This document shows positions 4,949 through 21,508 of a DNA stretch of 28,167 nt, one piece after another. The notes under the pieces are model-generated. The model was not told where the DNA came from. It searched no databases and was given only the letters and a program-made list of their open reading frames with translations. The DNA comes from a virus, in the IMG/VR virus record IMGVR_UViG_3300017748_000093, positions 1 through 28,167 of that record. One strand, 5' to 3'. A program made the position numbers and the translations under genes. Positions within the stretch are counted from its first letter, which is position 1; each line of letters starts with the position of its first letter.

Positions 4949-7318
4949 TTACTTACCTTTTAGTGAGGCTTGTGTGTTTATTCTATAAATATTTACATCA
5001 TTTCGATCATCTGCAATACTTTCTTGTAGCTGTGATCTTTGTTGTGCCAAATCAAACGATTGTTTTAGCTTTGCTTGATCAATTTGAAAGTTCATCTGAT
5101 CATTTGCCACTTTTCTCTGTATTTCAGCAGTGTCATTCTCTAATTCTTGTTGTCTAATCTGTACAAGAGGATCAACTTGCTGTTGTGGTTGTAGAGATGG
5201 CATAACTTCACTCAATATTTCACCAATTTGCTGTGCTATCGCAGCTTCTAGGGCGGCAGGGTCAATTTGAGGAACCATTTCACCTCTCGCTTGAGCCTCT
5301 TGCATAGAAATTTGAAAGAATTTAGTTACTTGGTCTCTTGCCATCAGTCCAACATGCTCTTGAACATGTGCTTGTAATGAAGCATACCCTTGTGGATTGA
5401 CTTGTGATGCTGGTGTAGCCAAAAATGCTACATGAGCACGGACATGTGCCTCATGATCTTGTTGTGGAAACACTTGAAGAGGTGCAGCTTTAATAGAATT
5501 ACCATTTTCTGTGGCTGGATCTACAGGCGCAGGCGGTTGTGGAGGAGGTAAAATACTATCAATGTTCTTTATATCGAGTGCATCGTACATTCTTCTAAAT
5601 GCTTCGTACTGATTATGTATCTGTGGTGCTTGTTGTGCCATTTGCAACTGTGTTTGTGCCAGTGACAAGCGTTGTGCCATAGAAAAAATGCTCGGATCAC
5701 TTACTGGAAGTATGTCAATGCGTCCATCGAAGTCTTGTTGCATTATTTCTGGTGCAATATTACCTACAGAATAAGGATATGGTACTGGATTCTCTGCAAA
5801 AATCTCTGCCAACATACGAAATTCTTGTTTTTGTCCGTAATGTAGTCGCTTGTGTATACTAGAAATAATTTTTGAGCCTTGCTCAATCAAAGCAACAGTT
5901 GTTCCTACGGGTGCTTGTGAGTTTACATCACTAATTTTAGCATCAGCAACTTGTGCAAAACGTCTACCAGAATCAACAACAACACTTAAAAGTTGTGCTA
6001 GTGTACCAGATGGTTCTTTATATGGCAGTGGGATGATGGAGTTTTTAAGATCTCCACCTGGGACATCGATATCTCTGAATTCCCCAGGATTAAGAGGCTC
6101 GTCATCATTACGAATACGAACACCCCTCGCTTTAAAACCTGCTGGAAGATTTGATAAAGTACCTGCATCAATTAATTGTCTTAAAATAGAAGTCGCAGCA
6201 CGAGAAAGACCTCCGATTGTGTGCAGTAACCCGAAACCATAAAAGCCAAATCCTGGTAAAAATTTAAAGTGTACAAAATATTGTCTCTTACGTCTTAACG
6301 GATCTTCTTCCCTATAGTTCCTAACCACCGATAAAACTTGACTGGAGTTTTCATCAATCGTGACAATATATGGTAACATGATTCCATTCGGATCTTCAAA
6401 ACCTTCCAAATCGAGATCCACATGGACTTCCAAAAGTGTGTATACATCATCAGAATAGTTCGGATGGAGTCCTTGAAGCTCATCAGTAGTTCCTTGGATA
6501 CTACTTTCATCTTCTCCAGAATCCGTTGTAGATAACTCAACATCTCTATACACTCCTGCTACTTGTAGTTTACGAATATCATTATACGTCATTTTAACTA
6601 CATGCGTAACCCTCTCTGCCGTCATTAAGTCTGACGCAGAATATGGAACAACTAAATCTTCGGCAGGTACAAATTTTGATACCGCTCTTTGTTTTGTTGT
6701 ATCAAAATAAACTTTTTTAAATGTAGACCCAGTTAACGGCAAATAAAATAACATTTGATCCGTATCAGCGTCATACTCTTCCATGACTTCCATTATCTGG
6801 TAGTTCATAAAATCTTTTACTCTTTGTGCTTGATCCTCTGTTTCTTTTGTAGGAACACCAAGAATATTTGTTTTTACAGGTCCACCACTTGGCAACATCT
6901 CTTTATAAGCCTGGGACTGAAACTGTGTTGTTGCCTCACTCAATAATGGATGAGTTACCCCACTTGCACCAAGAAAAGGATCACTTCTATCTTCGTAATT
7001 AATTCCTAATAAATTAAGTCCCTTGGCAATGGCTTCTTCCCAATCAGATCTTGACTCCATGTCTTCTCGAACTTTGTTTTGTAAGTCTGAAGATAAAGAT
7101 CCTAGTACACCCTCATCTAAAACTTCTGCCAAGTTCGCATCATGATTGTAAGGTTCTGCAACAACTTCTACCGCTTCGTCTGTAGCAAGTTCGATTCCTT
7201 CTGGTAAATCGTCAATGGTCGATGGTAACTCGATTTCAAGACTGTCTTCCTCTGGCATCATGCTGCCACCCGCGCCCATTGATCCCTCGACCATTCCTGC
7301 TATCTGTCGTTCTGCCAT
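4949..7318 (-). CDS. Portal protein, P22-like
   Basis: 789 residues, in the size class of P22 gp1 (about 725). The acidic N-terminus leads to RSDWEEAIAKGLNLLGINYEDRSDPFLGASGVTHPLL, then QMLFYLPLTGSTFKKVYFD and PAEDLVVPYSASDL, a pattern I associate with large podovirus-type portals. The middle has PGFGFYGFGLLHTIGGLSRAATSILRQLIDAG, the conserved core of the ring. The end is Gln-rich coiled coil (QQELENDTAEIQRKVANDQ), as in the long barrel of P22-like portals. It forms the dodecameric ring at the head vertex through which DNA enters and leaves, and docks the terminase encoded two genes upstream. The ATG shares a base with the preceding stop (TAATG), with GAGG eight bases upstream. Confidence 0.9.
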   Translation of the reverse strand: MAERQIAGMVEGSMGAGGSMMPEEDSLEIELPSTIDDLPEGIELATDEAVEVVAEPYNHDANLAEVLDEGVLGSLSSDLQNKVREDMESRSDWEEAIAKGLNLLGINYEDRSDPFLGASGVTHPLLSEATTQFQSQAYKEMLPSGGPVKTNILGVPTKETEDQAQRVKDFMNYQIMEVMEEYDADTDQMLFYLPLTGSTFKKVYFDTTKQRAVSKFVPAEDLVVPYSASDLMTAERVTHVVKMTYNDIRKLQVAGVYRDVELSTTDSGEDESSIQGTTDELQGLHPNYSDDVYTLLEVHVDLDLEGFEDPNGIMLPYIVTIDENSSQVLSVVRNYREEDPLRRKRQYFVHFKFLPGFGFYGFGLLHTIGGLSRAATSILRQLIDAGTLSNLPAGFKARGVRIRNDDEPLNPGEFRDIDVPGGDLKNSIIPLPYKEPSGTLAQLLSVVVDSGRRFAQVADAKISDVNSQAPVGTTVALIEQGSKIISSIHKRLHYGQKQEFRMLAEIFAENPVPYPYSVGNIAPEIMQQDFDGRIDILPVSDPSIFSMAQRLSLAQTQLQMAQQAPQIHNQYEAFRRMYDALDIKNIDSILPPPQPPAPVDPATENGNSIKAAPLQVFPQQDHEAHVRAHVAFLATPASQVNPQGYASLQAHVQEHVGLMARDQVTKFFQISMQEAQARGEMVPQIDPAALEAAIAQQIGEILSEVMPSLQPQQQVDPLVQIRQQELENDTAEIQRKVANDQMNFQIDQAKLKQSFDLAQQRSQLQESIADDRNDVNIYRINTQASLKGK

Positions 7319-7673: not shown

Positions 7674-9149
7674 CTAATAATATTCTCTTGCTCTACGAGG
7701 AAACCAATCTTCTGGCTCTTCCTCACCCTTTAGTGATACAAAACCACCTTGCCTAAAACGCATAATAGCCATTGTCATACTATCACAATAGTCATCATGA
7801 TCGCCATTCGGAAATGAAGCAACCTCTTCTATAACTTCATCTGCAAACTTTGAGTTAGGATACCACACTTTTCCAGATTCGAAAATAGGAGATACCATAT
7901 GCATCCTCGTAACCTTATCTAAGTTACCCCCTTTGCGTCTGCCAGGACTAAATGTAACTACGGGTAAATTTATTAATCGCATCTCATCCGCTAATGATTG
8001 ACCAGATGCTTTTGCCTCAATCAACATCAAATCTGGTTCCCAATACTCATTCTGCTCTATCGCTATCTCTTTCAATTCTGGAAAATTCCAACGCCCCTTT
8101 GTCGCATCAAGCAATATAATATGCTGTTCACCATTCTCCTTCGGCTCGAAAATACCCCATGTCGTTACAGCACTATAGTCAGCACTCTCTTTTTTACTGT
8201 AAGCCGTATCGTAACTCTGAATAATATAGTCCAATCTCGGTGTGTCTTCCCGTTCCCATAACTGCCACCAATCACGCTTGACCATTGCCACTGCTTCAGA
8301 TGTAGGATTCTGCTGCCACTGAGCATTCCACTTGCCAATGGACAGTGAAGCCTTGACCTTTAACAATTCATCAACATTCCAAAATTCGGGCCATAACGCT
8401 TTTTCAGTAGGAAGTATCGCTGGAAACTCGACCACTTCCCATTGATCTGCCATAGTGTCTTTTGCTTGATCTGTAATTAATCTGCCCGTGAGGTCTTTCT
8501 TAGACCATCTTGTCTGCACAATTATGATGGTACCCCCCGGTTGTAATCTCTGTCTCGGTCCAGAAGTGTACCACTCATATGTATTGTCATACGCTGTCGA
8601 AGACAACGCATCTTGTTCAGAGTGTGGATCATCAATAATTAATAAATCAGCACCACGACCTGTCATTGCTGCACCCACCCCTGCGGCAAAATATTCCCCG
8701 CCACGGCTCGTTTCCCATCTTCCAGCCGCTTGGCTATCCTGTTTCAGGTCCGTATCTGGAAACACATCGCTATAGATAGGATCAGCTATGAGATCACGAA
8801 CCTTCCTTCCAAACCTTACCGCAAGTTCAGTGTTCATGGTAGCTTGTATTATTTTTAATTTAGGGTTCCTTCCTAAAAACCAAGAAGGCATAAGATAAGA
8901 GGCTAATTCAGACTTGGAATGTCTGGGGGGCATATTGATAATTAATCTTTTCAATTTACCATCGGCAATCGCCTCAAGCTTCTCAGCTATTATTCTGTGA
9001 TGCCGTCCTTCGATAAACCCCTCGTATACATGTTTGGCATACGCCATAAACTTGTCCCTTGCCAACTCACGAGTTTCAAGTTTTTTCTTTTGTTCTTCGA
9101 GTTGAAGAACTTGTTGTAACACTTCTTTTGGCAGCGAGTCTAGATTCAT
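7674..9149 (-). CDS. terL: Terminase large subunit
   Basis: 491 residues from the ATG at 9149. Walker A is PPRHSKS (74-80), the usual PPRHGKS with Ser for Gly. Walker B is LLIIDDPH (169-176). The C-terminal RNase H-like nuclease shows YIIQSYDTAYSKKESADYSAV (first acidic residue) and GDHDDYCDSMTMAI near residue 450 (last acidic group). The protein is the ATPase motor that drives DNA through the portal and the nuclease that cuts concatemers. An in-frame TTG two codons further upstream is possible; I prefer the ATG. It is first in the leftward virion operon and is separated from its small subunit by about 3.2 kb carrying plus-strand genes. Confidence 0.93.
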   Translation of the reverse strand: MNLDSLPKEVLQQVLQLEEQKKKLETRELARDKFMAYAKHVYEGFIEGRHHRIIAEKLEAIADGKLKRLIINMPPRHSKSELASYLMPSWFLGRNPKLKIIQATMNTELAVRFGRKVRDLIADPIYSDVFPDTDLKQDSQAAGRWETSRGGEYFAAGVGAAMTGRGADLLIIDDPHSEQDALSSTAYDNTYEWYTSGPRQRLQPGGTIIIVQTRWSKKDLTGRLITDQAKDTMADQWEVVEFPAILPTEKALWPEFWNVDELLKVKASLSIGKWNAQWQQNPTSEAVAMVKRDWWQLWEREDTPRLDYIIQSYDTAYSKKESADYSAVTTWGIFEPKENGEQHIILLDATKGRWNFPELKEIAIEQNEYWEPDLMLIEAKASGQSLADEMRLINLPVVTFSPGRRKGGNLDKVTRMHMVSPIFESGKVWYPNSKFADEVIEEVASFPNGDHDDYCDSMTMAIMRFRQGGFVSLKGEEEPEDWFPRRAREYY

Positions 9150-9441
9150 GCCCAAACGATAATATATTTGAATGAATTTATCAAGCTAACATGACATGAC
9201 ATGCCACATACTACACACCCCCGTTATATGGGTGGGAGGGGGTTATTGGATTGCAAAGTTAACATGTTAATTAAATCAGTAACCCCAACATAGTTAACAT
9301 GTTAAGTAATAACTCTAAGTAATTAGTTAACATGTTAATAAGAAAGTTAAAATAAATGCAATTAATTGTAATTAATTGTTTTACTTATTTAAAAAACCGT
9401 GATACTGTTTTTTTATAACTTAACAAAACGAGGGTAATAAA
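9150..9441. promoter_or_regulatory. Divergent control region between terL and the rightward genes
   Basis: About 290 bases with no gene. From left to right: an AT-rich stretch before terL with TATATT (minus) at 9161-9166; overlapping CATGACA repeats at 9189-9203; a G/C-rich inverted patch at 9217-9243 (CCCCC facing GGGGG); three exact TTAACATGTTAA palindromes at 9259-9270, 9294-9305 and 9327-9338, spaced 35 and 33 bases, about three helical turns; then CAATTAATTG at 9359-9368 and a TTGTTT with GATACT at 9401-9406 as possible promoter parts for the gene at 9442. The layout is that of a repressor- or activator-controlled divergent promoter pair. No transcription start is proven. Confidence 0.6.
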
Positions 9442-9873
9442 ATGAAAGATCAAATTACAAGAGAAAGTTTAGCTAAAGGAACTTTGGTAAGAGTTTATAG
9501 AAACTTAACTACAGATACTTTTAGTGTCCAAGTAAAAGTAAGAAGAGGTAATGGTAAACTTGGATGGATAGTTATTGGATATTGTGACCATATGAGACTA
9601 GACAATGCCCACTTTATTGTTGGAGAAAAAACTAGACAAAAAGTAATAGCAGAAAACAAAAAGTATGTTCATGCTTATGTGTCTGGTGAATGGTGTGACA
9701 CTTGGACATTATCTGGTGATCTAGAAACAGTTACATATAATCCTAGAAAGTCTAGATACTTTAGAACTACTACCTACTATGGCAATAGATCTATTGATCC
9801 AAAATGGAAAGGAACTGTTTATCTCCACAGAGATTCACAAAAAGGTTTAACTGTAACAAGGAAAGTGGCTTAG
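9442..9873 (+). CDS. Unknown basic protein
   Basis: 143 residues, rich in beta-forming and basic segments (LAKGTLVRVYRNLTTDTFSV; KVRRGNGKLGWIVIGY; KSRYFRTTTYYGNRS). No membrane segment and no recognised motif. GAGGG lies upstream of the ATG. It is the first gene of a short rightward unit of three that ends at a strong terminator near 10384-10412, and it follows a control region with three palindromic sites, so it is likely among the most tightly regulated genes here. I recall similar hypothetical proteins in marine phages; function unknown. Confidence 0.75.
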   Translation: MKDQITRESLAKGTLVRVYRNLTTDTFSVQVKVRRGNGKLGWIVIGYCDHMRLDNAHFIVGEKTRQKVIAENKKYVHAYVSGEWCDTWTLSGDLETVTYNPRKSRYFRTTTYYGNRSIDPKWKGTVYLHRDSQKGLTVTRKVA

Positions 9874-9899
9874 TGCCACTTCCTAGAAAGGATAATAAG

Positions 9900-10178
9900 A
9901 TGACTAAATTAACTCAATCTGAAAAACTTATTAATCATTACAAAAAACAAGCAGAGATTAGAGATAAGCATTTAGAGAAAACAAATAATAATGTTAGTGA
10001 TAAAATAGATATCACTCCTAATTGGATTACATGTGGGGAAATAATTATAATGGCATTGCAAAACCCTAATTTAGATCACAAGGGTTTTGAAAATGTTTTT
10101 GCTAATATTAGAGATATGGCAAAAAAAATGGATCATGCTAATAAAATAATTAAACAACTAAAATCAGAAAAAGGATAA
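9900..10178 (+). CDS. Unknown small helical protein
   Basis: 92 residues from the ATG at 9900 (MTKLTQSEKLINHYKKQAEI), with AGAAAGGA nine bases upstream. An in-frame codon further upstream would extend it into the previous gene, which I reject because of the good ribosome site here. It is nearly all helix, polar and charged, with a central IDITPNWITCGEIIIMALQNPN. No family recognised. Second gene of the three-gene unit. Confidence 0.65.
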   Translation: MTKLTQSEKLINHYKKQAEIRDKHLEKTNNNVSDKIDITPNWITCGEIIIMALQNPNLDHKGFENVFANIRDMAKKMDHANKIIKQLKSEKG

Positions 10179-10182
10179 TAAG

Positions 10183-10368
10183 ATGAATTGGTTTACATAT
10201 AGCAGTATCGATAACAATCTTAAAACTTATAATACAAGAGAAGTGAATTGTTTAGAATGTAAAGAAACATTAGTAACAAGAGACTATGAAGAAACATTTA
10301 AAGAATGTTATTACTGTGGATCTAATAAACTAGGAAATGAAAGAATAGTAATTAATCCAAACATATAA
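10183..10368 (+). CDS. Small zinc-ribbon protein
   Basis: 61 residues. Two CxxC pairs, C23-LE-C26 and C42-YY-C45-G, separated by 15 residues, form a zinc-ribbon pattern. The rest is polar. It starts four bases after the preceding stop with AAAGGA upstream and is the last gene before the terminator. Zinc ribbons of this size in phages often bind nucleic acid or a host polymerase; the actual partner is unknown. Confidence 0.7.
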   Translation: MNWFTYSSIDNNLKTYNTREVNCLECKETLVTRDYEETFKECYYCGSNKLGNERIVINPNI

Positions 10369-10383
10369 AGTTTTATCCTCGAA

Positions 10384-10412
10384 GAATGGGAGCATATGCT
10401 CCCATTTTTTTT
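10384..10412 (+). terminator. Rho-independent terminator
   Basis: A perfect stem ATGGGAGC/GCTCCCAT (extendable by AA/TT) with an ATAT loop, followed directly by eight T. It ends the unit 9442-10368. Confidence 0.92.
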
Positions 10413-10751
10413 GTGTTTGTTTTTTGTGTTTGTTAAAACGGTCATTAACACGCAAGACGCAAGACAATGAACATGTTCAATATATCCTCCAAGATGCAAG
10501 AACCATATTTAGTTAACATTGTTAACCAACTACGGTCGCTCCCTACGGTCGCAATAACGGTCATGACCTTCGGTCATGGCTCATGTACGGTCTTGCCTCG
10601 ATCGTTAACATGTTAATAGTTAACATGTTAAAGGCCTGGATAGTTAACATGTTAATTGATAGTTGTTATTTATTGCAATTAATTGTTTACTTATTCTTAT
10701 TTATAGGTTATTGTTTATTTATAAACAAAAACGATATGAAAGGATAAAAAA
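10413..10751. promoter_or_regulatory. Repeat-rich control region upstream of 10752
   Basis: About 340 bases without a gene. It holds a CGGTCA...(ACGCAAG)2 repeat at 10438-10465; palindrome TGAACATGTTCA at 10468-10479; an imperfect 13-bp form TTAACATTGTTAA at 10513-10525; a GC-richer block at 10531-10590 with five CGGTC copies, some facing each other; three exact TTAACATGTTAA at 10605-10616, 10620-10631 and 10644-10655; then CAATTAATTG at 10676-10685, TTGTTT at 10683-10688 and AT-rich DNA to the gene. The same ingredients recur at 11878-12041, suggesting duplicated regulatory modules. Confidence 0.65.
10619..10640 (+). repeat. 22-bp unit, copy 1 (operator plus AAGGCCTGGA)
   Basis: The operator palindrome with its preceding G is followed by AAGGCCTGGA. 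The same 22 bases recur at 11994-12015 and, inverted, at 15066-15087. Confidence 0.85.
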
Positions 10752-11087
10752 ATGACATATCAAAAAATAAATATCGAAAATGATTTAATACAAAGTGAGT
10801 TTAATTGTTATTCAATTGAGGATAGAAAAAAAGCAATTATTGCTATTCTTAAAATGTATGAATTATCAAAAGACAATAAAAAAGTTTATGAAGGTTTAAA
10901 GGATATGGAAAAAACAATTAAAGCTTTAATTGAGATAAACAAAGAAAAGGGTTTAAAATCTGGTAAAGCTAAAATTGTTAAAAGTAAAAAATATCTAGTA
11001 TTAAAAAAAGGTATACTAGACAGACTGAAAATTCATAATAGAGGATATTTCAAATATACTACTAGAGATTTATTCAAATACTTATAA
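10752..11087 (+). CDS. Unknown lysine-rich protein
   Basis: 111 residues, AT-driven Lys/Ile composition, mostly helical (KKVYEGLKDMEKTIKALIEI) with a basic C-terminal half (SGKAKIVKSKKYLVLKKG). The end, RGYFKYTTRDLFKYL, has a small beta-like pattern. AAAGGA precedes the ATG. It is followed by a perfect 12-bp hairpin and has its own operator-rich upstream region, so it is probably expressed alone. No family recognised. Confidence 0.65.
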   Translation: MTYQKINIENDLIQSEFNCYSIEDRKKAIIAILKMYELSKDNKKVYEGLKDMEKTIKALIEINKEKGLKSGKAKIVKSKKYLVLKKGILDRLKIHNRGYFKYTTRDLFKYL

Positions 11088-11094
11088 AACTAAT

Positions 11095-11125
11095 AACCCA
11101 TTGCAATTTATTGCAATGGGTTTAT
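11095..11125 (+). terminator. Perfect 12-bp hairpin, probable terminator
   Basis: AACCCATTGCAA faces TTGCAATGGGTT across a TTTA loop just after the stop codon of the gene ending at 11087. The following T tract is short (TTTATAATT), so efficiency is uncertain; it could also protect the 3' end. Confidence 0.6.
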
Positions 11126-11150
11126 AATTAACTTATTGGAGGATTAAAAA

Positions 11151-11780
11151 ATGATACAATTAAATAAAGAAGAAAAAAGTTATTATAAAAAAATGTTATC
11201 TAGTACGTCTAAACTTGGCGTTAAATCAATTTCATTAAATGCAAATCTTTGTAAAACTGGATCTAAACTAGCAAAAAAACCTGGAACAGTTTGCAATGGA
11301 TGTTATGCATTAAAAGGATGTTACGTTTTTCCAGTAGTTAAGGATGCAATGGCTAGACGTTTAGAGTTTTTTAACAGTAAAGATTTTATTCCAATTATGG
11401 TTTGGTTATTACAATCACAAACTAAAAAGTTTTTTAGATGGTTTGATTCTGGAGATATTCAAACTGTTTTTATGGGTTTAAATATTTTAGAGATTTGTAA
11501 ACAAACTCCAGATATTAAACATTGGATACCGTCAAAAGAATATAAAATGTGGAGACAAGTTTTAAAAATTGAGTCTTTACCAAAAAATGTTTGTTTAAGA
11601 ATCTCTTCGCCAAACATTGACCAAAAACCATTAGATGGATTTAACAATACATCTACAGTACATGAAAATAAAAAAGCTTTTGGTTTAGAATGTATTGCAT
11701 ATAAACAAGAAGGTAAATGTTTAGAATGTAAAGCTTGTTATAATCCAAAAGTAAAAAATGTTTCATATCCTTTACATTGA
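11151..11780 (+). CDS. GP88-family protein
   Basis: 209 residues. The start LGVKSISLNANLCKTGSKLAKKPGTVCNGCYALKGCY, with C34, C48, C51 (CNGCYA) and C57, followed by R-EFFN, then FFRWFDSGDIQ and VCLRISSP, and a late CLECKAC pair, fits the phage gene-product-88 (GP88) family as I recall it. The cysteine grouping suggests a bound metal or iron-sulfur cluster. The biochemical role of the family is not known to me. GGAGG precedes the ATG. The gene stands alone between a hairpin on the left and two hairpins on the right, with palindromic operators on both sides of that stretch. Confidence 0.7.
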   Translation: MIQLNKEEKSYYKKMLSSTSKLGVKSISLNANLCKTGSKLAKKPGTVCNGCYALKGCYVFPVVKDAMARRLEFFNSKDFIPIMVWLLQSQTKKFFRWFDSGDIQTVFMGLNILEICKQTPDIKHWIPSKEYKMWRQVLKIESLPKNVCLRISSPNIDQKPLDGFNNTSTVHENKKAFGLECIAYKQEGKCLECKACYNPKVKNVSYPLH

Positions 11781-11803
11781 TAATTTAACATGTTAAACAA
11801 ATA

Positions 11804-11826
11804 GTGAGCTAATCGGGATAGCTCAC
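11804..11826. repeat. 8-bp hairpin after the GP88 gene
   Basis: GTGAGCTA faces TAGCTCAC with a seven-base loop. No T tract follows on the plus strand. It sits between the operator at 11785-11796 and the strong terminator at 11840-11877. Confidence 0.6.
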
Positions 11827-11839
11827 TTATCAAGCTCTA

Positions 11840-11877
11840 GAGACTAGGAAATCCTCCCCTCCTAGTCTCTTTTTTTT
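11840..11877 (+). terminator. Rho-independent terminator
   Basis: GAGACTAGGA faces TCCTAGTCTC, a perfect 10-bp stem with a ten-base loop, followed by eight T. It ends the unit that carries the GP88 gene. Confidence 0.92.
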
Positions 11878-12037
11878 GTGATCGTTTTCGATCACAAACG
11901 GTCACAAGACGCAAGACGCAAGACCATGGTCAAGCATCTTTTATCGATGGTCAATTGACCATCGGTCATCAACACGCAAGACGCAAGAAAATAGTTAACA
12001 TGTTAAAGGCCTGGATTTCCAGGATTTAGTTAACATG
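11878..12037. promoter_or_regulatory. Repeat-rich space between convergent units
   Basis: No gene. It holds two CGGTCA/(ACGCAAG)n repeats at 11898-11925 and 11962-11989, a perfect 20-bp palindrome at 11945-11964 (centre GGTCAATTGACC), operators TTAACATGTTAA at 11995-12006 and 12030-12041, and CCTGGATTTCCAGG at 12010-12023. Since the flanking genes converge here, these are not upstream sites of either neighbour, which argues for a role other than simple promoter control, such as replication or terminating or insulating transcription. Confidence 0.55.
11994..12015 (+). repeat. 22-bp unit, copy 2
   Basis: Identical to 10619-10640 over all 22 bases; its end forms half of CCTGGATTTCCAGG at 12010-12023. 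Confidence 0.85.
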
Positions 12038-12412
12038 TTAACGGCTGCCAAAGATGGATTTTATTATTTCTTTTATGTCTTTTGTCTGTAAAATAGCCTT
12101 TGTCAAAAGACCATTGTCAGATAATTCAATGGCTTGAGACCCTTCAAATAAAAATAGGTCAGAGGTCAAGAGGTGCTTGACCAAGAAAAAAGATAACCCT
12201 TTTGAATTAAAAAGCGACATATTCCAAGCAATTTGTGATCTTTGTAATAAAATGTGGTTGTTTTTAGTTGTTTTTAATTCAACAAATACAGAAATACCAT
12301 TGTGACATAAAAAAGTGTCACACATTCCATTTGATACCCTATTTTCAATTCTTTGATAATGAGTTTTTGGAGGAAGATTTTTCTTCAATAGCAACCAAAG
12401 ATTTTTCTCCAT
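12038..12412 (-). CDS. Putative PD-(D/E)XK nuclease, VRR-NUC-like
   Basis: 124 residues. The start MEKNLWLLLKKNLPPKTHYQRIENR is followed by GMCDTFLCHNG and ISVFVELKTTKNN, giving the D...ExK catalytic core (GxxD then V-E-L-K) seen in VRR-NUC and related phage nucleases; the R-I-E after the first helix also fits. QRSQIAW follows, as usual in this group. Such enzymes cut branched or other structured DNA, such as packaging or recombination intermediates. The ATG at 12412 lies inside the small terminase gene in another frame, a 68-base overlap; the frame's N-terminal motif matches family members, so I accept the long overlap. The stop codon lies within an operator palindrome. Confidence 0.75.
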   Translation of the reverse strand: MEKNLWLLLKKNLPPKTHYQRIENRVSNGMCDTFLCHNGISVFVELKTTKNNHILLQRSQIAWNMSLFNSKGLSFFLVKHLLTSDLFLFEGSQAIELSDNGLLTKAILQTKDIKEIIKSIFGSR

Positions 12413-12881
12413 CGTCTTTTACTTTCTTAAATTGACCCTCTACAAAAGCATGAGGATAATCTGATCTGATTTGTTGAAGTCTAGCAATAATTTCTTCTCG
12501 ACTTAATTTATCAAGTTGATGAATATGGTTTTGTTCTCGTCTATCAACTGTTAATCCACCTAATGCCGATCTTGTTTTCTCTGCATTTATTGATGCAGAA
12601 AATTGTCCCTCTTCTTCTGCTCTATGAGATAATTCAGATAATCTTTTTAACTGACCAATCAATGTCACTCCATATTTTCTTTCTCTTTCATCTCGAAGTT
12701 CTTTTACATGTTCAGTAACTAAAGGAAAATCTTTTCCATTTAATAATTTAGATGCATGAAATTTTGCACTATCCTCTGCGTAACCACTTTTAATTGCACA
12801 TTGTTTTGCAGAATAAATACCTTCGACATAGTGTTTAGCAAACTCTCTTTGTCTAGGTGTTAGTTTTGATTTATTAGCCAT
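12345..12881 (-). CDS. terS: Terminase small subunit (Terminase_2 type)
   Basis: 178 residues. The N-terminal LTPRQREFAKHYVEGIYSAKQCAIKSGYAEDSAKFHASKLL is the helix-turn-helix of the Terminase_2 family, which recognises the phage packaging site. Then come a helical oligomerisation region (TEHVKELRDERERKYG; LKRLSELSHRAEEEGQFSASINAEK) and a polar tail rich in S and K. It would form a ring that loads the large subunit on DNA. The gene has no Shine-Dalgarno before its ATG; instead a good promoter (TTGATT, 16 bases, TATAAT) ends seven bases before the start, so its mRNA may be leaderless. It lies apart from terL with plus-strand genes between them. Confidence 0.88.
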   Translation of the reverse strand: MANKSKLTPRQREFAKHYVEGIYSAKQCAIKSGYAEDSAKFHASKLLNGKDFPLVTEHVKELRDERERKYGVTLIGQLKRLSELSHRAEEEGQFSASINAEKTRSALGGLTVDRREQNHIHQLDKLSREEIIARLQQIRSDYPHAFVEGQFKKVKDDGEKSLVAIEEKSSSKNSLSKN

Positions 12882-13194
12882 ATGGCTATTATAGGGATTT
12901 TCACAACCAAATCAATTTGGAAAAAACAAAATCTCGTGTGCGTTTTGGTAGTGATTTGAAAGTGTGTAAATGTGTATAAAGTGTGTAAATTATTTGAAGG
13001 TGGATAAAGGTTTTAGAACTGTTTACACACTTACACACTTACACGCCTATTTTCTCAAAAACTTTTTCAAATTTATTTTCGTTGTGAAAAACCCTATATA
13101 AGTAAAATAATTGTCATTAATTGCAATTAAATGTTTTTTTATTTTAATTTATGTGTTAGGCTCTTCTTAGGTTAAAAAATTATGGAGGATCAAA
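12882..13194. other. Candidate replication origin or switch region
   Basis: About 310 bases without a gene, between divergent genes. The left end is the terS promoter. The middle (12961-13047) has AGTGTGTAAA at 12961-12970 and 12980-12989, TGTGTATAA at 12971-12979 (complement TTATACACA, an exact TTATNCACA DnaA-box match), GGTGGATAA at 12999-13007 (one base off TGTGGATAA), then TTTACACAC and TTACACACTT facing back at 13022-13040. The 10-bp arms at 12980-12989 and 13022-13031 are perfectly inverted. AT-rich DNA follows, then TTGCAATTAA at 13121-13130 and the ribosome site of the gene at 13195. The origin reading is inference. Confidence 0.5.
12888..12915 (-). promoter_or_regulatory. Promoter of terS, sigma-70 type
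   Basis: Read on the minus strand: TTGATT at 12915-12910, a 16-base spacer, and TATAAT at 12893-12888. The predicted start of transcription falls at or next to the A of the terS ATG (12881). Confidence 0.7.
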
Positions 13195-13368
13195 GTGAAC
13201 ATTTATTTAACTAAAAAAGATCAAGAAGTTTTAAAGGCAATTTTAAGACAAGAACAAACTTCTCAAACATCTACATGGGAAGTTAATGGCGAAAGAAATT
13301 TTGTTGATGTCGATATTCTATTACAGAAGTTAACTACTAATTGGTTTAATTCGAAAGGAAATAAATAA
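13195..13368 (+). CDS. Tiny unknown protein, GTG start
   Basis: 57 residues, starting MNIYLTKKDQEVLKAILRQE. The GTG lies seven bases after TGGAGG; no ATG is usable because the nearest one hits a stop. It resembles a small helical domain with a Gln/Thr-rich loop. Its stop overlaps the next ATG (TAATG). It is the first gene of the long rightward operon, right after the candidate origin. Confidence 0.6.
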   Translation: MNIYLTKKDQEVLKAILRQEQTSQTSTWEVNGERNFVDVDILLQKLTTNWFNSKGNK

Positions 13369-13535
13369 TGTACGTTTTATTTTGTTACGGAGTTTATGGA
13401 TATTATGAGACTTATAATGAGGCTCTTTCCATGAAAAAAATCCTAGAGAAAAAAGGATACAAAGATGTTCTATCAATTGAAAAAATGGAGAACTATCAAG
13501 ATGCAGAAAAAATATATGCAAAGGGAGATGTGTAA
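13368..13535 (+). CDS. Tiny unknown protein
   Basis: 55 residues, starting MYVLFCYGVYGYYETYNEAL. It has an aromatic beta-like start and then a helix and a second strand (KKILEKKGYKDVLSIEKME), a small alpha/beta fold. Start coupled to the previous stop. No family recognised. Confidence 0.6.
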   Translation: MYVLFCYGVYGYYETYNEALSMKKILEKKGYKDVLSIEKMENYQDAEKIYAKGDV

Positions 13536-13536
13536 A

Positions 13537-13842
13537 ATGAAAAAAATAACTAGAACAACAATTAAAAGTTTTATCAAAAAGAATTTCGATGATCTTTATA
13601 TTTCTACAAGATCAAGATTTAATGGGATGATTGATTGTGTAGATAGATGTCATGATCAATCTTTTTATAAAGTTGAAAAAGATGAAAGAGAAAGATTTCA
13701 TGATAGTTCATTAGGAATTAAGAATGCTTATTTTGTTGGAAGTAGTAGAGATTATTTTCAACTATATGATCAAAATGGTTTTAAGGGTTATGAAATTTAT
13801 AACTGTGTTGGTTCTTTTATCTTAGCAACTAAGGAGGGTTAA
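13537..13842 (+). CDS. Unknown small protein
   Basis: 101 residues from the ATG at 13537, one base after the previous stop, with GGGAGA upstream. Starts MKKITRTTIKSFIKKNFDDL. Contains CVDRCHDQSFYKVEKDERERF and YFVGSSRDYFQLYDQNGFKGYEIYN, the latter a clear beta hairpin pattern. I recall similar phage hypothetical proteins but no function. A longer frame extending upstream exists; the ribosome site favours this start. Confidence 0.65.
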   Translation: MKKITRTTIKSFIKKNFDDLYISTRSRFNGMIDCVDRCHDQSFYKVEKDERERFHDSSLGIKNAYFVGSSRDYFQLYDQNGFKGYEIYNCVGSFILATKEG

Positions 13843-14235
13843 ATGGACAGTTATAAATCATTAACAAAATTATATAATAGATGGTTGTTAAGAAATAAAT
13901 ATAACCCTCTAATTAGTGCAGACGATCTCCTCTATGATCATCATGGAGGGGAGATAACTTTAACAAACATTCAAGAAAAATGGATTAGAAAATTCATAAA
14001 TGTTTGGGAAAAAGCAGAAGAACATGAATTTGAAAAAAGTAAAACTGATCAAGATAAGATTGGAGAATTGTGGAATGAATATCTTTACAAAGACAAGAGA
14101 TCATTCAACGAATATTTTTCCGAGGAGTTTGGTTTTACTCCAAACGAAGACATTACCTACAAGCAATTAAGATTATTGTGTGTAATGTTTTTTCATAACA
14201 AAAATGTCAAAGGTAATTTGTGGGAGGAAGTATAA
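13843..14235 (+). CDS. Unknown small protein
   Basis: 130 residues, starting MDSYKSLTKLYNRWLLRNKY. Helical, with DDLLYDHHGGEITLTNIQEKWIRKFI and a C-terminal EDITYKQLRLLCVMFFHNKN. It begins directly after the preceding stop with GGAGG in the end of that gene. No motif recognised. Confidence 0.65.
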   Translation: MDSYKSLTKLYNRWLLRNKYNPLISADDLLYDHHGGEITLTNIQEKWIRKFINVWEKAEEHEFEKSKTDQDKIGELWNEYLYKDKRSFNEYFSEEFGFTPNEDITYKQLRLLCVMFFHNKNVKGNLWEEV

Positions 14236-14432
14236 TGATCAATGGTCAATTGACAATGCTCAAGGATAGTGGGGCGACTTTACAATATGAATGTGAAGAA
14301 TGTGTTGGACATGGAAACATACCAATTAGTTGTGATGAAGTAATTACATGTCAATCATGTGGAGGTCGAGGATGGACTGAGAATTTATCCTCGATACCTC
14401 AAGATTTATTAATCAGAGTTGGGAGGAAATAA
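14235..14432 (+). CDS. Small DnaJ-type zinc-finger protein
   Basis: 65 residues. CEECVGHG and CQSCGGRG are two CxxCxGxG repeats, the zinc-binding module of the DnaJ central domain, 18 residues apart. No J domain is present, so it is not a full DnaJ. Single modules of this kind occur in phage and plastid proteins as zinc-bound binding units. Start coupled by TAATG. Binding of unfolded protein or of a host chaperone partner is possible but inferred. Confidence 0.7.
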   Translation: MINGQLTMLKDSGATLQYECEECVGHGNIPISCDEVITCQSCGGRGWTENLSSIPQDLLIRVGRK

Positions 14433-14626
14433 TGGCTAAATTTAAAAAAGTAAAATCAATTATTGATAAGAGAACTAAAATGGTAATGGAGATTGATTAT
14501 CTTTTTGGAAGAGTTAATGAAATTTTTGAACTCTATGACGAGGGAGAAATGAATGAGATTAAAGCACACAAACTTTTTAGAGAGTGTTGTGAGAATTTTT
14601 TAGGAGGAAAAAATGGAAGAGATTAA
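14432..14626 (+). CDS. Tiny helical protein
   Basis: 64 residues, starting MAKFKKVKSIIDKRTKMVME. All helix, with a hydrophobic face (IDYLFGRVNEIFELYDEGEM). TAATG-coupled start; overlaps the next gene by 14 bases. No family recognised. Confidence 0.6.
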   Translation: MAKFKKVKSIIDKRTKMVMEIDYLFGRVNEIFELYDEGEMNEIKAHKLFRECCENFLGGKNGRD

Positions 14627-14795
14627 ACCAAGTGTAATTCCTTTAGCAAAAGCATTGGAAGAATTTATTCATCACAATTTAGATGTCATTACAGATAGTG
14701 AATGGTTTCAAGAAAAAGTTGCAATAACATTGAAACAACATTTCGCAGATGAAGAAGTAAAAGAGACATTGAAACAATTAGGATTGGAGGAATAA
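14613..14795 (+). CDS. Tiny acidic helical protein
   Basis: 60 residues, starting MEEIKPSVIPLAKALEEFIH. Acidic amphipathic helices, no cysteines. TAGGAGG stands before the ATG. Small acidic proteins in an early phage operon can be DNA mimics or inhibitors of host enzymes; nothing more specific is visible. Confidence 0.6.
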   Translation: MEEIKPSVIPLAKALEEFIHHNLDVITDSEWFQEKVAITLKQHFADEEVKETLKQLGLEE

Positions 14796-14796
14796 A

Positions 14797-15063
14797 ATGA
14801 TAGGAATTTTAAATATACCTTATGTAATTGACGAGGCACATGGTTGGGCAATCGTAACAAGAGTTGATCTTCGTAAAGCCAGATTACATCCAGATGATTT
14901 TCCAAATGCATACAGAACAAAGAATGAAGAATTGTTTGCACTTGAGGAAGATTGTGAGATGCCCAAGTTACTTAACAAGTTAAATGATAATGGAGTTATC
15001 TTTCAGTTGAATGAAAAAAGAATTGCATATGATGATAAAGATAACCCTAGGAATTGGAAATAA
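14797..15063 (+). CDS. Unknown small protein
   Basis: 88 residues, starting MIGILNIPYVIDEAHGWAIV. Strand-turn-strand start, then RVDLRKARLHPDDFPNAYRT and a final NGVIFQLNEKRIAYDD. GGAGG stands eight to twelve bases before the ATG. It is the last gene before a short control region with an operator. No family recognised. Confidence 0.65.
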   Translation: MIGILNIPYVIDEAHGWAIVTRVDLRKARLHPDDFPNAYRTKNEELFALEEDCEMPKLLNKLNDNGVIFQLNEKRIAYDDKDNPRNWK

Positions 15064-15155
15064 CTTCCAGGCCTTTAACATGTTAACTAAATAATAGTTG
15101 CAATAAATTGTAAAATAATATCTAATCATAATGAACTTAATGGAGGTAATTTAAA
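15064..15155. promoter_or_regulatory. Short control region with operator
   Basis: Holds the inverted 22-bp unit at 15066-15087, then CAATAAATTG at 15101-15110, one base different from the CAATTAATTG element found upstream of 9442, 10752 and 21637, and GGAGG before the ATG at 15156. The order operator, AT element, gene repeats that of the two larger control regions. Confidence 0.55.
15066..15087 (-). repeat. 22-bp unit, copy 3, inverted
   Basis: The reverse complement of the unit at 10619-10640, placed three bases after the stop codon ending at 15063 and about 70 bases before the gene at 15156. Confidence 0.85.
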
Positions 15156-21367: not shown

Positions 21368-21508
21368 GTGCAAAAATACAGAACAGTGGCTATCCCATTA
21401 GAGATTTTTGAAGATCTAAAAAAGATAGCCGATCAAGAAGGAAGATCATACGCAAGACAAATTAGTTGGATGATTAAAAATTATTTTGAAAAAAGTATTG
21501 ACAATTAA
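21368..21508 (+). CDS. Ribbon-helix-helix regulator, Arc/CopG-like
   Basis: 46 residues from a GTG at 21368 with AAGGAG six bases before it. KYRTVAIPLEIFEDLKKIAD is the beta strand and first helix, EGRSYARQISWMIKNYFEK the turn and second helix of the Arc/MetJ fold, with the alternating polar T-V-A-I strand that enters the major groove. Proteins this small are dimers or tetramers binding short palindromes, and usually control phage promoters. It follows its own promoter between the two helicase and SSB blocks. It is the only clear small DNA-binding regulator I see here, so it is a candidate for the protein that reads TTAACATGTTAA, though its own promoter lacks that site. Confidence 0.8.
   Translation: MQKYRTVAIPLEIFEDLKKIADQEGRSYARQISWMIKNYFEKSIDN

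Follow-up and report, generated by a model that had tools for sequence, protein, structure and literature searches.

Stoperators of Cluster A mycobacteriophages such as L5 and Bxb1 are short sites that recur many times between genes, both at promoters and at gene ends, with a consensus that varies by sublineage (PMC6550527). The DNA analysed here, referred to below as the window, is the IMG/VR virus record IMGVR_UViG_3300017748_000093, a contig of 28,167 bases from an uncultivated marine phage in which the 12-bp palindrome TTAACATGTTAA is repeated between genes. These repeats form a real and strongly conserved family of probable operators, and a regulon that includes a new RNA is plausible from the sequence. 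Genes on the left of the window form a leftward structural module (terminase large subunit, TerL; portal; GroES-like protein), and those on the right form a rightward module of early and replication functions (helicases, primase, DNA polymerase A). No lysogeny genes were observed. The closest cultured relatives by TerL are the pelagiphages HTVC027P (58% identity) and HTVC023P (54%). Few viruses are more abundant than SAR11 phages, and we know of no account of the switch logic of those lacking their own RNA polymerase. In HTVC027P, all early genes are without known function (PMC12753301).

Ten intergenic copies of one palindrome

The first-pass annotation had described ten exact copies of the palindrome that never lie inside a coding body, and both points were borne out. 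The copies start at positions 9259, 9294, 9327, 10605, 10620, 10644, 11785, 11995, 12030 and 15075, for an expected number of 0.00 and none in 100 shuffles, and allowing two mismatches adds just four places in the window. Nine of the ten overlap no gene; the tenth, site 12030-12041, touches only a gene end, as its last four bases overlap gene 12038-12412 (minus strand) at the stop codon. Since the intergenic share is 6.1% for the whole window and 24% for positions 9156-15155, the intergenic position of all ten sites is not due to chance. The array spacings given earlier (35 and 33 bases upstream of gene 9442, 15 and 24 upstream of gene 10752) are also correct. All copies lie within 9.2-15.1 kb, with none in the remaining 22 kb of the window and none in the first 30 kb of the genome G001. 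The sites are arranged as follows.

9259..9338, no strand: array 1, sites 9259-9270, 9294-9305 and 9327-9338, between the divergent predicted promoters of TerL (minus) and 9442 (plus); slot kept in relatives
10605..10655, no strand: array 2, sites 10605-10616, 10620-10631 and 10644-10655, upstream of gene 10752; slot kept in relatives
11785..11796, no strand: site in the spacer/-10 region of a predicted small-RNA promoter, 4 nucleotides past the GP88 stop codon
11995..12041, no strand: site pair 11995-12006 and 12030-12041, the second holding the stop codon of 12038-12412 (minus)
15075..15086, no strand: lone site upstream of gene 15156, an exact copy

A CtrA box, which reads TTAA-N7-TTAA, was ruled out, as the TTAA half-sites are separated by four nucleotides in every copy. 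Blocks of the repeats CGGTCATYAACACGCAAGACGCAAGA and ACGGTCGCTCCCTACGGTCGC adjoin some of the sites (10439-10468, 11898-11927 and 11963-11992) and are present too in the relatives L214, L232 and L035.

Slots in relatives and a second palindrome in sister lineages

We scanned all viral contigs for arrays, defined as two copies 10-40 bases apart, using as control the reversed palindrome, which has the same composition and is also palindromic. The scan returned 55 stretches for TTAACATGTTAA and one for the control, and nearly all of the 55 come from this TerL lineage. In 50 contigs selected for holding arrays, 264 exact copies and 36 copies with one mismatch were counted, while copies with two mismatches are at background (60 vs 56 in shuffles). 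The flanks show a symmetric preference for TAG before the site and CTA after it (174 distinct contexts), which extends the site to approximately TAGTTAACATGTTAACTA, an 18-bp palindrome. Of the 264 copies, 32 apparently lie in genes, and nearly all of these fall in short open reading frames (ORFs) made by the motif itself (reading VNML) or in upstream gene extensions. The sites keep their slots across relatives (TerL promoter region, early operons, between convergent genes) even though the intervening genes differ. The operator family proposed from the window alone is thus supported: of the two outcomes that would have spoken against it, equal frequency inside genes and a lack of sites between the genes of close relatives, neither was observed.

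Among 80 TerL relatives, arrays are present in a main clade (the main A clade) and in a second A group (L092, L048, L059, L007, L044, L030), and relatives at 79-87% TerL identity mostly lack them. On the TerL tree, the monophyly test of the A-type is borderline (p 0.048) when L071, which belongs to the A clade but lacks the upstream motif, is dropped. Some relatives (L016, L023) carry a further site on their structural side. In several early proteins of A-type genomes, namely the ribbon-helix-helix (RHH) protein discussed below, primase, UvrD helicase, phrog_2378, phrog_2402 and the terminase small subunit (TerS), the two A groups resemble each other more than they do other lineages, which is not so for TerL and portal; the operator therefore travels with the early module. 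Not one copy of TTAACATGTTAA is present in HTVC027P, HTVC023P, 023Pt_psg01 or DSL-LC04, and a search for the 12-mer in papers returned nothing relevant. In L024, an unrelated GC-rich phage, two exact sites 25 bases apart (6178-6214) lie just upstream of a gene starting with an RHH-like domain. This site pair near an RHH gene (L024/L006) was set aside, because a few unrelated array matches, against one in the control, could arise by chance.

In sister lineages, the two array slots are occupied by another palindrome. Arrays of GTCA-N6-TGAC, the sister-lineage operator sequence TGTCAATTATTTGACA, lie upstream of TerL in two sister clades (L112/L113/L115/L109 and L114/L116/L118), and L113, L116 and L118 have a second such array about 1.0-1.2 kb further upstream, the two corresponding to arrays 1 and 2 of the window. 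In the 55.7-kb sister contig G022, all seven GTCA-N6-TGAC copies fall in the two arrays. The two clades do not group on the TerL tree (approximately unbiased test, p 1e-4), and the palindrome is found in AT-rich and GC-rich phages alike. Retention of a slot with replacement of its palindrome is the pattern expected of operators diverging in related phages, and is the strongest clue to the nature of the sites. Because the slots are the same in relatives and hold another palindrome in sister lineages, we take the sites as docking sites of a regulator. In a further sister group (L122, L127, L129, L121), yet another repeated palindrome, ACCTGCGnACGCAGGT, is present about 0.7-1.4 kb upstream of TerL.

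Predicted promoters and a conserved candidate RNA

The genes and predicted promoters around the sites, with the candidate regulator, are listed below.

7674..9155, minus: TerL (phrog_38)
9156..9184, minus: predicted TerL promoter, TTGATA - N17 - TATCGT, present also in relatives with other operators
9358..9408, plus: GCAATTAATTG (9358-9368) and predicted core promoter of 9442, TTTACT (9380-9385) - N17 - TACTGT (9403-9408)
9442..9873, plus: early gene downstream of array 1, Phage_L5_gp82 family (PF25735)
10675..10714, plus: GCAATTAATTG (10675-10685) and predicted core promoter of 10752, TTTACT (10686-10691) - N17 - TATTGT (10709-10714)
10752..11087, plus: gene downstream of array 2, small protein; slot filled by one of two unrelated families
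11151..11780, plus: GP88 family gene (PF17338)
11771..11799, plus: predicted small-RNA promoter, TTTACA (11771-11776) - N17 - TAAACA (11794-11799), read from sequence; TTGACA in many relatives
11804..11876, plus: conserved candidate RNA of two hairpins, with an intrinsic terminator at its end and UCCUCCCC in the loop of hairpin 2 (structure, covariance)
12038..12412, minus: nuclease/helicase-like gene (phrog_2165), stop codon inside site 12030-12041
12345..12881, minus: TerS (PF03592)
15098..15126, plus: predicted core promoter of 15156, TTGCAA - N17 - TCTAAT
21368..21508, plus: RHH protein of 46 residues, candidate binder (profile, model, fold match)

Where mRNA promoters are predicted for 9442, 10752 and 15156, the nearest site precedes the -35 box; sites at mRNA promoters stand at about -52 to -82. 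These promoters are predictions, and simple promoter scans match no more often than in shuffles in such AT-rich DNA. The AT element that had been placed 12-19 bases from the arrays corresponds to GCAATTAATTG, which follows the proximal sites of 9442, 10752 and 15156 by 19, 19 and 13 bases, respectively; the layout described as fixed holds inside the window but not in relatives, where the distance ranges from about 13 to 43 bases. The element GCAATTAAT is found at 9358, 10675, 13116, 21297 and 21504; most predicted early promoters have it nearby, whether or not they have the palindrome, at a variable position relative to the -35 box (within the spacer in L035). For 30 distinct promoters of the lineage, distances from site centre to -10 box cluster near 40, 50, 60 and 70 bp, and phasing at a period of 10.5 is stronger than in shuffles (R=0.60 vs 0.17, p<0.001), a p value that counts homologous promoters separately when they are not independent. 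This helical phasing is suggestive, and gives a lead towards a regulator that would contact RNA polymerase.

Site 11785 sits just ahead of a conserved candidate RNA. The gap between the end of the site and the first hairpin is exactly 7 nucleotides in 25 of 25 loci, and TTGACA or TTTACA precedes by about 17-18 nucleotides a TAAnnA that ends the site in these loci, which places the site in the spacer/-10 region of a likely promoter. In nine distinct sequences of the RNA, all 162 pair cells of its 18 pairs are kept, and four pairs have changed on both sides (compensatory changes). With a covariance model, matches of E 1e-17 or better came from 26 of the searched sources, every one a member of the main A clade, and no match at that level came from the sources searched outside this clade; no Rfam family and no entry of the phage record collection matched the RNA. 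The loop of hairpin 2 carries UCCUCCCC (CCUCC) or a shortened form of it. In the second A group (L044, L055, L092), the same loop is present in the same slot on an unrelated stem, without the site. The CCUCC loop resembles an anti-Shine-Dalgarno sequence, and the predicted RNA may act in this way.

Between TerS and gene 13195, positions 12957-13043 contain a separate repeat set made of AGTGTGTAAAT and the inverse TTTACACACTTACACACTTACACG, possibly origin iterons or a TerS operator; similar AAGTGT clusters are present in L098, L120 and L121.

Candidate regulator, rival readings and known systems

We consider that TTAACATGTTAA (extended, TAGTTAACATGTTAACTA) would be the operator of a phage-encoded DNA-binding regulator with two-fold symmetry, present in arrays of one to four sites around the junction between TerL and the early genes, and we give this reading a probability of roughly 0.6. 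The sites probably control the early genes and the small RNA, and their recurrence at the same promoters and RNA gene makes a co-regulated set plausible. At 9442, 10752, 15156 and the divergent TerL promoter, the regulator would bind upstream of the core promoter and could act by touching RNA polymerase or by changing the upstream DNA. Bound to site 11785, it would cover the spacer/-10 region of the small-RNA promoter and thereby block that promoter. The net effect could be a switch from an early state of small RNA and early operon to a later state, or back. A more ambitious and rather doubtful extension pictures a lytic pelagiphage regulon in which a single palindromic operator, by its position, would run the early operons from upstream and the small RNA from within its promoter, the anti-Shine-Dalgarno-like UCCUCCCC loop would act on translation, and the operator would be re-specified in place in sister lineages, as in immunity groups.

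The binder proposed earlier, the 46-residue RHH protein, does exist as an ORF (21368-21508). It matches the RHH_5 profile at E 1e-5, just short of the Pfam cut-off, and its model (predicted local distance difference test score, pLDDT, 85) matches CopG and Arc in Foldseek with a probability of about 1.00 and E-values above 0.05. In 17 genomes the gene occupies the syntenic position between a SNF2-type helicase and phrog_2378. The beta-strand of the protein, KY[RK]TVAIP in all A-type copies, is nearly the same in five of five examined A-type genomes covering the region. Pfam scans that covered the small genes of the window, G001 and G022 detected no clear helix-turn-helix (HTH) regulator, part of the genome being possibly unseen. 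The protein encoded in the 10752 slot (10752-11087; 2883-3113 in L010) belongs to either of two small families, unrelated by profile, that are present only in genomes with the site; as a regulator it was rejected, its model being a coiled coil with beta strands, with no match in the PDB and no DNA-binding fold.

Several observations weigh against a regulator of this kind, or against this choice of binder. The sites at 11995 and 12030 lie at gene ends with no obvious promoter, and spacing within arrays shows no helical phasing. When the distances to the -10 box are reduced to 15 distinct states, phasing is weak (Rayleigh p about 0.02-0.04, and 0.06 vs uniform). The RHH proteins of G021, without GTCA arrays, and G022, with them, are 84% identical, two genomes that both carry GTCA-N6-TGAC arrays have RHH proteins only 51% identical, and no protein was found that tracks this operator across its two clades. 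This mismatch between RHH and operator in sister lineages means either that RHH is not the binder or that specificity lies elsewhere. RHH binding, as first suggested, thus agrees with a conserved, syntenic gene that follows the A-type and is weakened by the sister operator; RHH was rejected as a proven binder and is retained as the leading candidate, a tentative one, with a protein that profiles do not recognise being just as likely.

In a rival reading, the protein that binds the sites would serve DNA replication, partition, genome organisation or packaging (iterons, parS/matS-like sites, TerS recognition), and the link to promoters would be secondary. They are clustered within 6 kb beside terS and terL, RHH proteins include partition proteins and MatP, to which the RHH model has a fold match, and TerS and primase co-vary with the operator (A1 vs A2, 83% vs 60% and 82% vs 57%, respectively). 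We consider this unlikely, since several promoters have sites, the small-RNA promoter has one at a fixed position, and the irregular spacing of the sites is unlike that of iterons. A TerS/pac site was rejected: in the second A clade, TerS is on the other side of TerL and the arrays remain upstream of TerL. Exploitation by the phage of targets of a host transcription factor would suit phages that use the host RNA polymerase and an operator that, like the host genome, is AT-rich. It is quite improbable, however, because operators differ among sister phage lineages, the second one occurring in AT-rich and GC-rich phages, and because the array scan of 84,980 prokaryote species genomes, which searched arrays and not single host sites, gave 15 scattered matches in 257 Gb and none in any Pelagibacterales contig; a host regulon was rejected on the lack of host arrays. 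Three copies that have 24 identical bases (TAGTTAACATGTTAAAGGCCTGGA) in common, and CGCAAGACGCAAGA/ACGGTC repeats that accompany some copies, recall a spreading element of the repetitive extragenic palindromic (REP) type, selected for spread and not for function. Most copies, however, are alike only in the 12-mer and TAG/CTA flanks, slots are kept across divergent genomes and sister lineages have another palindrome in them, so that such an element is a very remote prospect.

With a phage-encoded regulator as the preferred reading, the lineage offers a defined operator, a defined set of predicted promoters and a candidate small RNA, and the palindrome swap at the same loci provides a natural experiment on the joint change of operator and regulator in seemingly non-temperate phages.

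Like Cluster A stoperators, the sites are present in many intergenic copies at promoters and gene ends and differ in consensus by sublineage. Stoperators, however, are asymmetric, oriented and genome-wide, whereas the sites described here are perfect palindromes with symmetric flanks, no orientation and a range of about 6 kb, and the HTH immunity repressor of Cluster A phages has no recognised counterpart in the window or among the small genes of G001, part of the genome being possibly unseen. Arc/Mnt of phage P22 and CopG likewise combine palindromic operators with an RHH protein, here phage-encoded and matching CopG/Arc by model; a difference is that, in sister lineages, operator type is not matched by the variation in RHH, and RHH binding to the sites is only putative here. 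The position upstream of the predicted core promoter, in what may be distance steps of about one turn, resembles Class I activator sites (CRP-type, -61.5/-71.5/-82.5), from which the -52 class, the sites over the small-RNA -10 box, the sites at gene ends and the weak phasing once homologous promoters are collapsed set it apart. The nearest cultured TerL relatives, HTVC027P and HTVC023P, do not share the operator. As in phage operator arrays generally, multiple intergenic copies of one palindrome stand at promoters in conserved positions.

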